Source of the DNA: Rhizobiales bacterium NRL2
Lineage (GTDB): Bacteria > Pseudomonadota > Alphaproteobacteria > Minwuiales > Minwuiaceae
Assembly: GCA_001664005.1 (NCBI GenBank)
Contig: CP016093.1
Span: forward strand, 1,061,001-1,125,000
DNA: 64,000 nucleotides
Direction: 5' to 3'
Shown here: positions 28,848-37,141 of the stretch, one piece after another
How positions within the stretch are numbered: position 1 is the first letter of the stretch
How the letters are laid out: each line of letters begins with the position of its first letter
Made by a program: the position numbers and the translations under genes
The notes under the pieces: generated by a model
The model's database searches: none
The model's input: the letters and a program-made list of their open reading frames with translations, nothing else
Told to the model about the DNA's origin: nothing

Positions 28848-29504
28848 TCAGCCGCTGGCCACCTGGCTGGCGCCGTTCATCACGAACCAGCCGGCCAGGC
28901 CGAGGGCGCCGAGCCCGAGCGCGTTGGCGAGAATCACCATGACGCCGTCGCGCGCGGCCAGCCCGAGGCTGAAGACGATGATCGCGGCCGACGGCAGTGC
29001 GACGCCGAAAGGCACCAGCGCCAGCGGATACATCGTCGCCGCCATGGCGATGCAGAATATGGCGCCCAGGCGGCCGAGTATGCCGTCGGTCAGGATCGTC
29101 AGACGGTGGTGCAGGAAGCGGTCGATGAAGCGCGCCACGGGCCGCGACGTATTCACGAATGTCTGCAGTTTGCTCTTGGGAAAGCGAACGCGCTGCGCCC
29201 GGTCGGGCAGCCAGGGATGGTCCGCGCCGACCAGCATCTGCAGGGCCACCAGGACGATGATGGTGGCCGTCGCGATCGACATGCCCGGGATCGCGCCCGT
29301 GGGCCCCAGCGCCAGCAGGCCGGGCACCAGCAGCAGCGGGGCGAAGGCGCGCTTGTCGAAGGCGTCGAGCATCTCGCCCACGGAAACCTGTCTGCCGTCC
29401 GCATGATCGAGCAGTCGGTCCAGCACCTCGGTCAGGGATTCCGGTTCGCCGCCGCCCGCCGCACGGCGGCGGCCCCTGCCGGGAGAGGCCGCCTCCATCG
29501 TCAT
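28848..29504 (-). CDS. ExoD-family membrane protein (downstream paralogue)
   Basis: From ATG 29504 the product has 218 residues. The N-terminus (about 1-30) is basic, followed by [33 protein letters not shown]-type sequence. Several membrane segments follow: [20 protein letters not shown], an [17 protein letters not shown] stretch, and two C-terminal hydrophobic hairpins. This is the ExoD (PF06055) pattern. ExoD affects exopolysaccharide production and alkaline tolerance in Sinorhizobium, but its activity is unknown. The start overlaps the stop of a paralogue at 29501 (ATGA). The frame opens further upstream without coding character. Confidence 0.85.
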
Positions 29505-30142
29505 GGGATTCCACCCAGCCAGAAGGCGACGCCGACACTCACACCGCCGAGCAGATAGGCGGCGGTGACGAATGCGCCGTCCCGCGCCACCAGTCCGAGA
29601 CTGTAGACGGCCACCGCCGCGGAAGGCGCGGTGACGCCGATCGGCATCAGCGCCAGGGGAAACATCAGCAGTCCCATCAGCACGCACAGCAGTCCGCCTG
29701 CGCGGCCGTTGACCCCGCGGGTCATGTATTCCATCCGCTGTGCCAGAAAGCGGTCGACGAACCGCGTCACCGGCAGCGACTTCTCAACGATCTTTCTCAG
29801 TTTCTGCGCCGGCAGCGTCAGGCGCAGCAGGTGTCCGGGCAGCCAGGGGTGATTGCGCCCGAACAGGATCTGGGCGCCGACCAGGATGTAGATTGCGCCG
29901 CCTGTCACCGAGATGCCCGGAATCGCCCCGAGCGGCGTGATGATGATGACCGCCGGGATCAGCAGGAGCGGCGCGAAGCCGCGATGGCTGAACGCTTCGA
30001 GCAGGCTTCCGACCGAGACCTTCTCATGGTGATCGGCCTGCTCCGTCAGGCTCTGGAAGACCGTGGTCAGGCCTTCGGCGTCGCCATTTCCGGAAGGGCG
30101 CCGCCGTGCCCGATCCTCCGACTGATACGTGTTGGAACTCAC
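29501..30142 (-). CDS. ExoD-family membrane protein (upstream paralogue)
   Basis: A 213-residue paralogue of the next gene. The two share SVGSLLEAFSHRGFAPLLLIP versus [21 protein letters not shown], the same GAIPGxS loop, the GxNHPWLP / GADHPWLP loop and the VTRFVDRFL segment. Four to five membrane spans are likely. The tandem pair probably arose by duplication and may form a hetero-oligomer. No exopolysaccharide genes are adjacent. The start at 30142 is about 100 bp downstream of the moaE stop. Confidence 0.85.
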   Translation of the reverse strand: MSSNTYQSEDRARRRPSGNGDAEGLTTVFQSLTEQADHHEKVSVGSLLEAFSHRGFAPLLLIPAVIIITPLGAIPGISVTGGAIYILVGAQILFGRNHPWLPGHLLRLTLPAQKLRKIVEKSLPVTRFVDRFLAQRMEYMTRGVNGRAGGLLCVLMGLLMFPLALMPIGVTAPSAAVAVYSLGLVARDGAFVTAAYLLGGVSVGVAFWLGGIP

Positions 30143-33339: not shown

Positions 33340-33879
33340 TCAATCGCGCGCGGCGGCCTTCTCCGATGCCTTGTCGCCGGACGCGGATTCCTTGTTCTGC
33401 TGCTCCAGCGCCTCGCCCCATTCGTCGAGCAGTTTGCGCCTTTCCGCCTCGGCGCGGCGCAGCAGGCGCTGCCCGGCGATATCGACCCAGGTACGGGCGA
33501 TGAACGGCGCGATCACCAGCAACGACAGGCCGAGCCCGGCCGCGGCGAAGTTGATCACCAGGAATTCGCCGTGGAACAGCAGCGCCAGGGCGGCATCGAA
33601 GTCGTTGCCGCTGTGCCAGAGGTGATAGAGCGCCGGCAGCAGGCCGGCGATATTGAACCCGGCGACGGTGGAGATTGCGCCCGGCGCCTGAAGGCCGCGG
33701 AAACAGCCCATGATGAATGTCGGCGAGAGATAGACGGCTACGACGGTGAAGCTGGCCGGCGCGATCGGCATCAGCAGACCGGCCATGGCGAAGACCATGA
33801 CCATGGTGGAACGCCCGCCGGCGGCGCGGGCGGGTCGCGCGCCGGTCTTGTCCCCGGACTCGGCGGCCGCGGCGCTCAC
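33340..33879 (-). CDS. Small membrane protein coupled to pseudokinase gene
   Basis: I do not recognise this 179-residue protein. Residues 1-25 are Ala/Arg-rich. Two hydrophobic segments follow (about 26-60: VMVFAMAGLLMPIAPASFTVV, then VYLSPTFIMGCFRG). After a linker with NIAGLLPALYHLWHSGNDFD come another one or two (EFLVINFAAAGLGLSLLVIA). The C-terminal tail is a charged helix (QRLLRRAEAERRKLLDEW...). The GTG start overlaps the stop of the 676-residue pseudokinase gene (GTGA), so the two are translated together and may form one membrane complex. No enzymatic motif is visible. Confidence 0.8.
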   Translation of the reverse strand: MSAAAAESGDKTGARPARAAGGRSTMVMVFAMAGLLMPIAPASFTVVAVYLSPTFIMGCFRGLQAPGAISTVAGFNIAGLLPALYHLWHSGNDFDAALALLFHGEFLVINFAAAGLGLSLLVIAPFIARTWVDIAGQRLLRRAEAERRKLLDEWGEALEQQNKESASGDKASEKAAARD

Positions 33880-35906
33880 AGCAGTTCAATCATGGTGAAG
33901 TAGAACCCTGTCAGGAAGGCGAGCGACATGCTGAGCAGACGCGCATAGCGGTAGCCGCGGCGCTTGGCGAGGATGGCCTGGGCCGGGCCGTTGGCGGAGA
34001 CGATGGCGATCAGGTTGTCCAGCCGCTGCAGCCGGTCCTTCGCGCGCTCGAACTCGGCGCGGTCCTGTTCGAGCGTGCGGTTGAGGTCCAGTTCCTCCAG
34101 CATTGCGGCCATATCGCCGCGCTTGGCCAGGCTTTCGACCTTCTTCTCCACCACCATGCGGCGCAGCCTGCTGCGGATTTCCGAGGCGGCGGGCGCCAGG
34201 ACCGCGACGAACGCCCGCGTCATGCCGGGCATCGGATGGCGGTAGTGGCTGCGCTGGACCGAGGCGTAGAACTCGACCAGCGAGACCAGTTCGGCTGTCT
34301 TGGTCGTGTGTCTGGCGTCGAGCGCACGCACCTCCTTCTCGATGTTCTTGTCCTGAGCAGCCATGAAGGCGGCCTCGTGGCGGCCGATCTCCAGTCCCGT
34401 CTGGGGGTTCTTCTCGGCGCGGCGGTTGAGCGCCAGCATCATCTCCGCCGGCGAACGCACTATGGCGTCCAGAACGCTTTCGCCGATGCAGGGCGTTCTG
34501 GGCAGCATTTCGTAAAGCACGCGTTCCAGGCCGTAGCCGCGCTTCTGCTCCTCCCGCATGATCGACTTGATCGTGCTGGTGACGAAGCCGGGCAGGGCCG
34601 CCCGCACCGCGCGGGAGCCCATGCCGCTCCACTCCTCCAGCAGCGGCGAGGACAGCAGCTGGTTCAGGGTCCGTATCCGGTCCTTGTTGCCAGTGCGGAA
34701 GGCGGTCCAGATCGCGCCCGGAATGCCCGACGGCGTGACCACCACATCACGGAAGCGCAGCGGGCCGTTGGGGTCGAGCGCGATGCACACGCGGGCGAGG
34801 ATCTCGTGACGGTCGGCGCCGGGCCCTTCCCTGGTCGCTTCGCCCGAAAGGGCCGCCGTCTGGATCAGGTCGGCGGCGGTGTTGTCGTCCAGGACGTTGC
34901 GCGTCCATTTCAGCAGCCGCCCGGCCTCGATGCAGGACATGGCGTCATCGGGATAGGTATGGAGCGCCCAGGCCAGCAGTTCGGGGCTGTAGTAGTCACG
35001 GTCGCGGAACAGGAAGGGTCGGATGGCGCGCCGGCCGCCGATGGTCGGGCGCGGTGCGTCCCAGCTGCCGGCGGCCCAGCTCTTCAGTTCGTCGCTGGAC
35101 CACCGCATGATTGCCTCGTCGGTCAGCGTGCCGGCGAACAGCGATTGCAGCGCCGCCGCGAACTTGCGGCGCTGGAGCAGGCATTCATAGGAGCCGCGCG
35201 TCACCTTGGTGGTCAGGATCTCCTGTGCGCTCATGCCCTTGCAGGGCATCTCCCCCGTCACCAGGTGCAGCGCCGCGACACCCAGCGCGTAGCAATCGTC
35301 GGCGGCGACGCCTTCGCCGCGCGCGCCCTCGGTCGCCAGCGAGGAGGAGATCGGCTCGTAGACCATGGGCTGCTGCTCGCCCGGAAGGTTCACCAGGCAC
35401 TGGTCCAGGATGACCTCGCCCCCGCGGTCGACCAGGATGGTGTCGTGGCGGATCGCGCGATGCAGCACCGCACGGGCCTTCATGTCGACCATGGCGCCGA
35501 TCACCGCCGGCAGGACGGTCTGGATCAGATCCTTTTCCGGCACGCCGCCCCGGGGATAGCGCGACAGGATGGGGACGGCGTTGCGCCGGTCGAAGACGAT
35601 AGCGAAGAAGTGACGCCCGTCGTTCAGCATCACCGTGCCGGACGCCTGGGGCAGCCGCATGTTGCGCGGCTCCTTGGACATCAGCGTGTCGGCCGCGGAC
35701 TGACGGACATGGACCCCGGGCTTGCAGAGCAGGGCGTAGTACTCGTCGGCGCCGCTGAGCTGGTCGGTGACCGCCACCGCGTCGGCGCCGGGCGGGGACA
35801 GATGCGGCAACGCGCTGCCCACGTCGAGGCGGAAACGCTCGCCCAGGATCAGGCCCCGTCCGTCGTCGATATAGGGTGCGTTCTGTGTGTGCTTCTTTCC
35901 CGACAC
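33876..35906 (-). CDS. Tail-anchored protein-kinase-like (pseudokinase) protein
   Basis: A 676-residue protein starting at GTG 35906. Residues about 90-225 resemble the C-lobe of an Hanks-type kinase: LHRAIRHDTILVD (149-161) stands for HRDLKPxNIL, VILDQ (165-169) for the DFG strand, and DDCYALGVAALHLVTGEMP (203-221) for the alpha-F motif. The catalytic Asp is Ala (151), the metal-binding Asn is Thr, the DFG Asp-Phe-Gly is lost, and no VAIK lysine is seen. It should therefore not phosphorylate in the usual way. The middle (about 260-540) is helical and unrecognised. A charged coiled coil (about 575-645) is followed by one C-terminal membrane helix (last 20 residues). It is coupled to the small membrane protein gene downstream. 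Confidence 0.8.
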   Translation of the reverse strand: MSGKKHTQNAPYIDDGRGLILGERFRLDVGSALPHLSPPGADAVAVTDQLSGADEYYALLCKPGVHVRQSAADTLMSKEPRNMRLPQASGTVMLNDGRHFFAIVFDRRNAVPILSRYPRGGVPEKDLIQTVLPAVIGAMVDMKARAVLHRAIRHDTILVDRGGEVILDQCLVNLPGEQQPMVYEPISSSLATEGARGEGVAADDCYALGVAALHLVTGEMPCKGMSAQEILTTKVTRGSYECLLQRRKFAAALQSLFAGTLTDEAIMRWSSDELKSWAAGSWDAPRPTIGGRRAIRPFLFRDRDYYSPELLAWALHTYPDDAMSCIEAGRLLKWTRNVLDDNTAADLIQTAALSGEATREGPGADRHEILARVCIALDPNGPLRFRDVVVTPSGIPGAIWTAFRTGNKDRIRTLNQLLSSPLLEEWSGMGSRAVRAALPGFVTSTIKSIMREEQKRGYGLERVLYEMLPRTPCIGESVLDAIVRSPAEMMLALNRRAEKNPQTGLEIGRHEAAFMAAQDKNIEKEVRALDARHTTKTAELVSLVEFYASVQRSHYRHPMPGMTRAFVAVLAPAASEIRSRLRRMVVEKKVESLAKRGDMAAMLEELDLNRTLEQDRAEFERAKDRLQRLDNLIAIVSANGPAQAILAKRRGYRYARLLSMSLAFLTGFYFTMIELL

Positions 35907-35995: not shown

Positions 35996-36058
35996 TTTGG
36001 GTAACAGACTGCCATTCGAACAAGAATGCGAATGCATGCCAGGGCCGGGAGGAAACGG

Positions 36059-37141
36059 ATGGCGACCCAACACCTATACGCGATGCCGGTCGAGCAGACG
36101 GGCTGGGAGTTCGACGGCGCGACCGAGATCAGTTTCACTTGGGAGTACGACGACGAACGCGCCGCCCTGCTGGCGCTCTACGACAAGGGCAAGAAGCAGC
36201 AATGGGACGCCGCGGAGCGCATCGACTGGACCCAGGAGGTCGACTGGGCCAATCCGATGGCGCTGCCCGACGAGCAGATCCCGATCTACGGCACCGACGC
36301 CTGGAACAAGATGAACGAGAACGAGCGCGCCGAGCTGCGCCGCCATCTCCAGGGCGCGACCCTCAGCCAGTTCCTGCACGGCGAGCAGGGCGCGCTGATC
36401 GCCACGTCCAAGATCGTCGCTACGGTGCCGGACGCCGATTCCAAGTTCTACGCCGCCACCCAGGTGATGGACGAGGCCCGCCACGTGGAGGCGTTCTCGC
36501 GCCTGCTGCACGAAAAGGTGCAACTCGCCTATCCCATCACGCCCGGCCTGAAATCCCTGCTGGAGCAGGGCCTGAGCGACCGCCGCTGGGACATGACCTA
36601 TCTGACCATGCAGATCCTGATCGAGGGTCTGGCGCTCGCCGCCTTCCAGCGCCAGCGCGACCATTCCGGCAACGATCTCGTCCAGGCCGTCAACGCCTAT
36701 GTCATGCAGGACGAGGCGCGTCATGTCGCCTTCGGCCGGCTGGCGCTGCGCGATTTCTATCCGGAACTGACCGAAGCCGAGCGCGACGAGCGCGAGGAGT
36801 TCGTGGTCGAGGCCTGCTACCACATGCGCGACCGTTTCAATCAGATCGAGGTCTGGGAGAACCTGGGCTTCTCCCGGGAACAGATCGCCGACGCCGTCGG
36901 CACCAGCGAGGTGATGGCGCAGTTTCGCCAGCGGCTGTTTACCCGCATCGTGCCGACGGTGAAGGATATCGGCCTCTGGGGCGAGCGCGTGCGCAAGGCC
37001 TATCAGGACATGGGCGTGATCCAGTTCTCCGAGATCGACGCCGAGGCGCTGCTCGACGCCGACAACAAGGTGGCCGAGGACTTCGACGCGAAGCAGTTCG
37101 TCAGGGACGGCGTCAGCGGCCAGGTCGCGGCGGCGGAGTAG
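36059..37141 (+). CDS. Diiron ferritin-like (R2-like) domain protein
   Basis: From ATG 36059, eight bases after GGGAGGA, the product has 360 residues. It has the four-helix diiron pattern of R2-like oxygenases: HGEQGAL, then MDEARHVEAF with ExxH, EGLALAAF in the third helix and QDEARHVAFGRL with the second ExxH. All six expected carboxylate/His ligands are present. The C-terminal part and length differ from NrdB, and no radical-site or NrdA partner is seen, so I do not call it ribonucleotide reductase. Possible roles are oxygenase or iron storage. A strong hairpin at 37174 follows the gene. Confidence 0.85.
   Translation: MATQHLYAMPVEQTGWEFDGATEISFTWEYDDERAALLALYDKGKKQQWDAAERIDWTQEVDWANPMALPDEQIPIYGTDAWNKMNENERAELRRHLQGATLSQFLHGEQGALIATSKIVATVPDADSKFYAATQVMDEARHVEAFSRLLHEKVQLAYPITPGLKSLLEQGLSDRRWDMTYLTMQILIEGLALAAFQRQRDHSGNDLVQAVNAYVMQDEARHVAFGRLALRDFYPELTEAERDEREEFVVEACYHMRDRFNQIEVWENLGFSREQIADAVGTSEVMAQFRQRLFTRIVPTVKDIGLWGERVRKAYQDMGVIQFSEIDAEALLDADNKVAEDFDAKQFVRDGVSGQVAAAE

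Follow-up and report, generated by a model that had tools for sequence, protein, structure and literature searches.

Two genes on the minus strand of the window, by which we mean the whole stretch of 64,000 nucleotides analysed here, encode a large protein with a predicted kinase fold and a small membrane protein (Table 1). The first-pass annotation had described the pair as a tail-anchored pseudokinase coupled to its membrane partner through overlapping genes; both open reading frames and the GTGA junction were found as described. The same 4-nt GTGA overlap occurs in 22 of 205 called pairs, an overlap of any length in 61, and a gap of 0-20 nt in 121, although overlaps are over-called in these counts, which took the first start codon of each frame.

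Table 1. Features of the pseudokinase gene and its partner in the window.
Feature	Position	Strand	Details	Basis
Pseudokinase gene (large subunit)	33876-35906	minus	676 aa, GTG start	ORF list
Predicted kinase-fold domain of the large protein	35061-35864	minus	residues 15-282	AlphaFold2, VIA-align, residue states
Predicted all-helical middle domain of the large protein	34089-35045	minus	residues 288-606	AlphaFold2
Predicted long helix and C-terminal membrane anchor of the large protein	33879-34085	minus	residues 608-676 (anchor about 657-675)	AlphaFold2, hydropathy
Partner membrane protein gene (small)	33340-33879	minus	179 aa, GTG start; charged C-terminal helix with L..EWG	
Overlap of pseudokinase stop and partner start	33876-33879	minus	4 nt, GTGA	ORF coordinates

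The gene beside the pseudokinase gene (window 36026-37141, plus strand) encodes what looks by eye like a ferritin-like di-iron protein; its cluster comprises seven loci, in six of which it lies upstream on the opposite strand. Elsewhere in the window, two adjoining minus-strand frames (28848-29687 and 29501-30142) have products that are similar by eye, possibly through tandem duplication, and that we take to be ExoD-like.

The AlphaFold2 model of the large protein, built from 57 aligned sequences, has a mean pLDDT of 89.0 and a pTM of 0.85. Residues of about 15-282 assume a two-lobed protein kinase-like fold in this model, which Foldseek matches to PknA with an E value of 6.6e-8. Alignment of residues 15-281 with VIA-align superimposes 252 residues on WNK3 (5o21) with an rmsd of 2.6 and Z of 23.7, and matches PknA (4x3f) with Z of 23.1; rows within 1 Z count as tied, and these two are tied. 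Solved kinases are matched at Z of 22-24 overall, with WNK entries in the top four rows (Z 23.1-23.7). The kinase fold that had been read from the C-lobe motifs is upheld by the structure prediction, and the motifs themselves, HRA at 149-151, LDQ at 167-169 and DDCYALGV at 203-210, lie at the residues claimed. The Pfam Pkinase model gives only a sub-threshold match to the window protein (E 0.015, residues 116-273), but among 57 relatives it detects 50 at E<=0.1, with a best E value of 8.8e-12.

Behind the kinase domain, the model places the helical domain (about 300-606), a helix at 608-638 and a second at 640-675, which contains the hydrophobic C-terminal stretch. The middle domain (residues 288-606) has no sequence match in the PDB at E<=1 and no consistent Pfam family, with five single-member matches (E 0.007-0.06) among 34 members; profile searches put no name on this domain or on the partner protein, and we do not propose the domain as a new fold. 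A hydrophobic 17-mer (KD>=1.6) lies within the last 45 residues of 211 of 217 homologues, and 202 of the 217 have no strong hydrophobic stretch in the body of the protein. By hydropathy, then, the protein has one membrane helix, placed at its very C terminus, as proposed for a tail anchor.

The first-pass annotation had stated that each catalytic position is replaced, and this holds for the window protein, in which the β3 lysine is Cys61, the HRD aspartate is Ala151, the catalytic-loop asparagine is Thr156, and the DFG aspartate is Gln169. The loss is family-wide: none of 209 distinct homologues has lysine at the β3 position, which is cysteine in 114, and a single one keeps the HRD aspartate, which is replaced by alanine (118), serine (35), glycine (19), or asparagine (14). 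His149 is present in 196 and alanine or serine at 151 in 153. The DFG position is aspartate in 108, glutamate in 77, glutamine in 15, and proline in 9. We use the label pseudokinase because none of the 209 homologues keeps all three of the β3 lysine, the HRD aspartate, and the DFG aspartate. The glycine-rich loop is replaced in the homologue alignment by a proline-rich stretch with the consensus PLPxLDxP. Asp204 and Arg268, which we take to be residues that hold the kinase C-lobe together, are kept in 215 and 216 of 217 rows, respectively. The ratio dN/dS between the window pair and its nearest relative is 0.094 for the large gene and 0.196 for the small gene, and over five pairs it is 0.087-0.134 and 0.078-0.271, respectively; these values indicate that the pair is under purifying selection, the window genus included.

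The pocket of most members may still bind something, as Arg153 is kept in 185 of the 209 homologues, Asn156 in 199, and Asp or Glu169 in 185. This raises the alternative that the pocket retains a nucleotide or small ligand, or has turned to other chemistry as in SelO or SidJ, in which case the complex would sense a ligand or act as an atypical enzyme. The excerpted text of a 2025 review (PMC12599244) describes a catalytic-loop arginine of DLHK pseudokinases that is modelled in contact with nucleotide phosphates, which would suit this alternative. The absence of the β3 lysine from all 209 and the replaced glycine-rich loop argue against it. The window protein and three congeners have Thr at 156 and DQ instead of G-D/E at 168-169, and by these residues the window protein is one of the more decayed family members; it has nevertheless remained under purifying selection. 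On balance we regard a ligand-binding or atypical enzymatic role as possible but on the unlikely side.

The distribution of the two genes was surveyed with profiles in 387 genomes of the class, all >=90% complete, with E<1e-20 defining a strong match for the large gene and E<1e-8 for the small gene; from the named homologues we infer the class to be Alphaproteobacteria. A strong large match is present in 131 genomes, 130 of which also have a strong small match, and the remaining 256 have no strong match to either gene; these counts exclude 2 small matches that are weak and 28 weak large ones (E 3.7e-4 to 1.7e-10), the latter taken to be ordinary kinases. The sole exception to the pairing is a genome (G365) with a large match at 1.4e-25 and no small match. 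At least one linked pair occurs in 126 of the 130 genomes with both genes, and the small gene lies <=800 nt downstream on the same strand for 136 of the 150 large matches listed, fragments included. As to the four genomes without a linked pair, a contig break intervenes in G276, the genes lie on separate short contigs in G309, and they are truly apart in G205 and G275. Phylogeny enters into the pairing counts, which are therefore not independent, but the two genes are present or absent together within the families f27 (neither in G034, both in G299), f30 (neither in G037, both in G362), and f61 (neither strongly in G376, both in G069, G250, and G316).

The surroundings of the large gene were also inspected in 112 loci, made up of the window, 31 fetched loci, and 80 named ones. 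The small gene was not found nearby in eight of them (L060, L064, L078, L081, L094, L100, L109, and L118), including L100, whose contig ends after 222 nt; in L090 it begins 762 nt downstream. The genomes of seven of the eight were searched, all but that of L060 (a 63% complete genome), and each of the seven has one copy of the small gene elsewhere; together with five others, 12 of 12 genomes searched have one small gene. The predicted conservation of the gene pair is borne out by these data: the genes are linked in nearly every genome, and the unlinked cases that were searched still retain both. The family and its pairing recur throughout the class, beyond chance.

A fixed 1:1 unit is not general, because copy numbers are unequal in some genomes; only the best 3 large and 9 small candidates per genome were scored, and extra copies can be missed in the following figures. 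Tandem copies of the two-gene unit occur in G133, G250, and G316, four small genes in each of G022 and G146, and two listed large genes with one small gene in G100, G135, G217, G248, G286, and G349. Two small copies of G022 (L253 2779-3375 and L254 3603-4124, both minus) have no pseudokinase beside them. One of these follows ABC-transporter-like genes, and the other adjoins a gene for a 994-aa protein with membrane stretches, both as judged by eye; the neighbours of lone small genes share no common theme by eye.

AlphaFold2 models the small protein with a pLDDT of 86.9 and a pTM of 0.62, placing helices at 22-39, 41-50, 52-61, 66-89, and 104-178, the last of which is hydrophobic in its first part only. 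Averaged over 205 homologues, the N-terminal segment carries 3.2 K+R and 0.3 D+E, the loop at 60-67 carries 2.05 and 1.29, the loop at 89-105 carries 0.79 and 1.94, and the C-terminal helix carries 5.8 and 4.6. Because of this charge pattern, the positive-inside rule points to four membrane helices and to a cytosolic location of both termini. The best sequence match in the PDB reaches only E 0.57, and the fold search gave no convincing match (Foldseek best E 3.4; VIA best Z 7.0, to a designed protein). Pfam yields scattered matches, some to transporter families, each in 1-2 of 57 members at E 0.01-0.1, which we read as chance.

A channel or transporter formed by the small protein, with the pseudokinase as its gating or accessory subunit, would account for the conserved P53, N76, and G79 in or beside membrane helices and for the lone small copies of G022. 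The searches just described, in sequence, fold, and Pfam alike, speak against this assignment, and we consider it distinctly improbable.

A search with the window protein in 60 genomes, its own included, returned a match in 31, one of which has two, and all 9 genomes of the order have one. At least 321 relatives were confirmed, and the best 80 were kept; among those named are Magnetospirillum, Telmatospirillum, Rhodospira, Roseospira, Thalassospira, Terasakiella, and Caenispirillum, together with numerous metagenome genomes, a few of which bear the unexpected labels, as deposited, Rhizobium, Asaia, Stygiobacter, and Candidatus Marinimicrobia. The pseudokinase is also present on five Azospirillum plasmid records, two of which annotate it as a serine/threonine protein kinase; in NZ_CP029356, a hypothetical protein is annotated next to it, at the place of the partner.

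Among 397 genomes of the phylum, 23 match the pseudokinase profile at E<=1e-15, 20 of them in the same class and three in others. The three outside matches cover only about position 104-127 to 391-399 and lie within larger proteins. L245 (991-3627, minus) belongs to another class of the phylum. Its HRDIKPGN and ADFG motifs are intact, and it may be an active cousin of the pseudokinase; by eye it also has recurring G-x-L-x-x-W stretches after the kinase domain and hydrophobic stretches near the C terminus. L246 carries AAA_11/AAA_12 and nuclease-like domains along with DLHK-like motifs. Homology beyond the kinase domain with L245-L247 was considered, as the full profile passes the kinase end, and was set aside, the region alone being not significant (E 0.08-0.56).

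A PurA-like gene lies <=2.5 kb upstream in 87 of the 112 loci, and a convergent RpoH-like gene <=2.5 kb downstream in 44, these names being taken from an annotated Azospirillum record and from reading of the sequences. The gene for an ATP phosphoribosyltransferase regulatory subunit precedes purA in the Azospirillum record, and the surroundings of the pair in the window genus differ from the purA/RpoH arrangement. We do not derive a function from these neighbours, which are taken as inherited housekeeping surroundings.

The kinase domain has weak matches to the PD-T4-6 and MAD6 models, which would bring an anti-phage defence system to mind. The PD-T4-6 models of PADLOC, which give no cut-off, match residues 132-236 only (best E 9e-7), and MAD6 scores 27.5 bits against a curated cut-off of 460; both matches span the kinase part alone. 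Unlike mobile defence genes, the pair usually follows purA and is present in one copy in 30 of 31 genomes. We hold a role in defence to be extremely improbable.

A further alternative is that an active Ser/Thr kinase is allosterically activated by the pseudokinase or docks with it, since allosteric activation of partners, often canonical kinases, is among the pseudokinase roles given in the excerpted review (PMC12599244). In 25 hand-picked pair-bearing genomes searched with Pfam at E<=0.001, Pkinase has no match in 7, matches only the pseudokinase in 5, and has another match in 13, two of which are strong (G192, 5.4e-40; G178, 5.0e-33); Pfam can miss divergent kinases, and in several of these genomes even the pseudokinase escapes it. 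Because 12 of the 25 have no other Pkinase match, a conventional kinase partner is, on this census, not general. The only Pfam Pkinase match of the window genome is L001 (1465-3624, plus), a kinase-like protein of 720 aa with a topoisomerase-type zinc ribbon, encoded elsewhere on the chromosome, at 4,053,937 versus 1,094,879 for the pair. A role of this kind appears very unlikely to us.

The most likely reading, which we favour with modest confidence, is that the two proteins form one complex in the inner membrane, where the pseudokinase would serve for binding or regulation and not for catalysis. The dead kinase domain and the helical domain of the large subunit would reside in the cytosol, with the single C-terminal helix as the tether to the membrane. 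The four-helix small subunit, with both ends in the cytosol, would either hold the large subunit or be controlled by it. At the membrane, the pseudokinase could bind a protein or ligand and pass that on, or recruit a partner, a non-catalytic role in the general way of the pseudokinase domain of EssB/YukC or MviN. Direct coupling analysis (mean-field DCA) of 205 pairs, with Neff of about 163, gave a best inter-protein score of 1.40 against a maximum of 0.93 in six shuffles, which destroy phylogeny, and nine further overlapping segments spanning the large protein reach 1.14-1.39 at best. We rejected these scores as evidence of contact, as segments of the kinase and middle domains score about as high as the anchor segment. 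The pairs F619-L158 and L632-L139 make geometric sense but were selected post hoc, and L593-G115 and L608-A113 do not fit. As a long shot, the pseudokinase, with its WNK-like β3 cysteine, might sense an ion, osmotic, or metabolite signal and gate the four-helix protein without known relatives; the pair would then be an old and widely retained two-subunit membrane sensor of alphaproteobacteria.

A dead, membrane-anchored kinase that occurs in many alphaproteobacteria and is almost always co-inherited with a small protein points to an unnamed two-part complex. Genomes as small as 1.4-2.0 Mb retain the pair, and five of these (G028, G117, G120, G136, and G224) have no Pfam Pkinase match at all. 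What the pair could reveal is whether proteins with a kinase fold can serve as core components of the membrane in the absence of phosphorylation. Bacterial pseudokinases are, according to the excerpted review, largely unexplored experimentally (PMC12599244), and the present family offers a dead kinase with a concrete candidate partner. The first-pass annotation had recognised no described system with this layout, and our literature searches found none among the open-licence papers listed. Membrane-anchored dead kinases are already known; the papers so listed show no description of a family that spans a class and has its own membrane partner, and the family may already be a group in the bSTK atlas of 42 kinase families.

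Seven bacterial pseudokinase families are described in the excerpts of the review, by whose descriptions the window family appears to be set apart from GLW, DLHK, CP1, ActPs2, and DYD (PMC12599244). In GLW members, HRD is replaced by GLW and the β3 motif reads LLLL/W (PMC12599244), whereas the window family has HRA or HRS and mostly AL[IV]C; the excerpts mention no partner gene for GLW pseudokinases. The DLHK family has two points in common with it: the catalytic-loop arginine is common to both, and L246, which matches the pseudokinase profile from outside the class at E<=1e-15, has the AVLT, HRDLRPAS, and GFG motifs of a DLHK member (PMC12599244). DLHK proteins, however, keep the HRD aspartate, have no membrane regions, and are often fused to helicase domains according to the same excerpts, the opposite of the window family with its hydrophobic C-terminal helix. 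The replacement of the β3 lysine by arginine given for ActPs2 and DYD (PMC12599244) is absent, with no arginine at position 61 in 209 rows. CP1 is described there as without a transmembrane region and with a linked COG3899 domain; the window family has the C-terminal anchor, and Pfam detects no ATPase domain common to 57 members.

WNK kinases keep the HRD aspartate. The replacement of the β3 lysine by cysteine is shared with them, yet they are described as active in the excerpted review (PMC12599244), and their Z values are tied with PknA and others; we claim no kinship. ActPs1 and ActPs3 are primarily actinobacterial in the review's account (PMC12599244). MviN, of ActPs3, resembles the large subunit in that a dead kinase domain on a membrane protein acts as a binding platform, but its action runs via PknB and FhaA, an FHA protein, and the FHA domain has no Pfam match in 22 of the 25 pair-bearing genomes. 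As for EssB/YukC, no YukC-type Pfam match was obtained for the window protein (E<=1) or in 57 members (E<=0.1), from a library that presumably includes such a model, and no secretion genes were recognised by eye among the recurrent neighbours of the pair. EssB/YukC is alike in having a membrane-anchored dead kinase domain that works in a membrane complex, as the review excerpts describe it (PMC12599244), while the window family differs by its 320-residue helical domain and its anchor at the C terminus.
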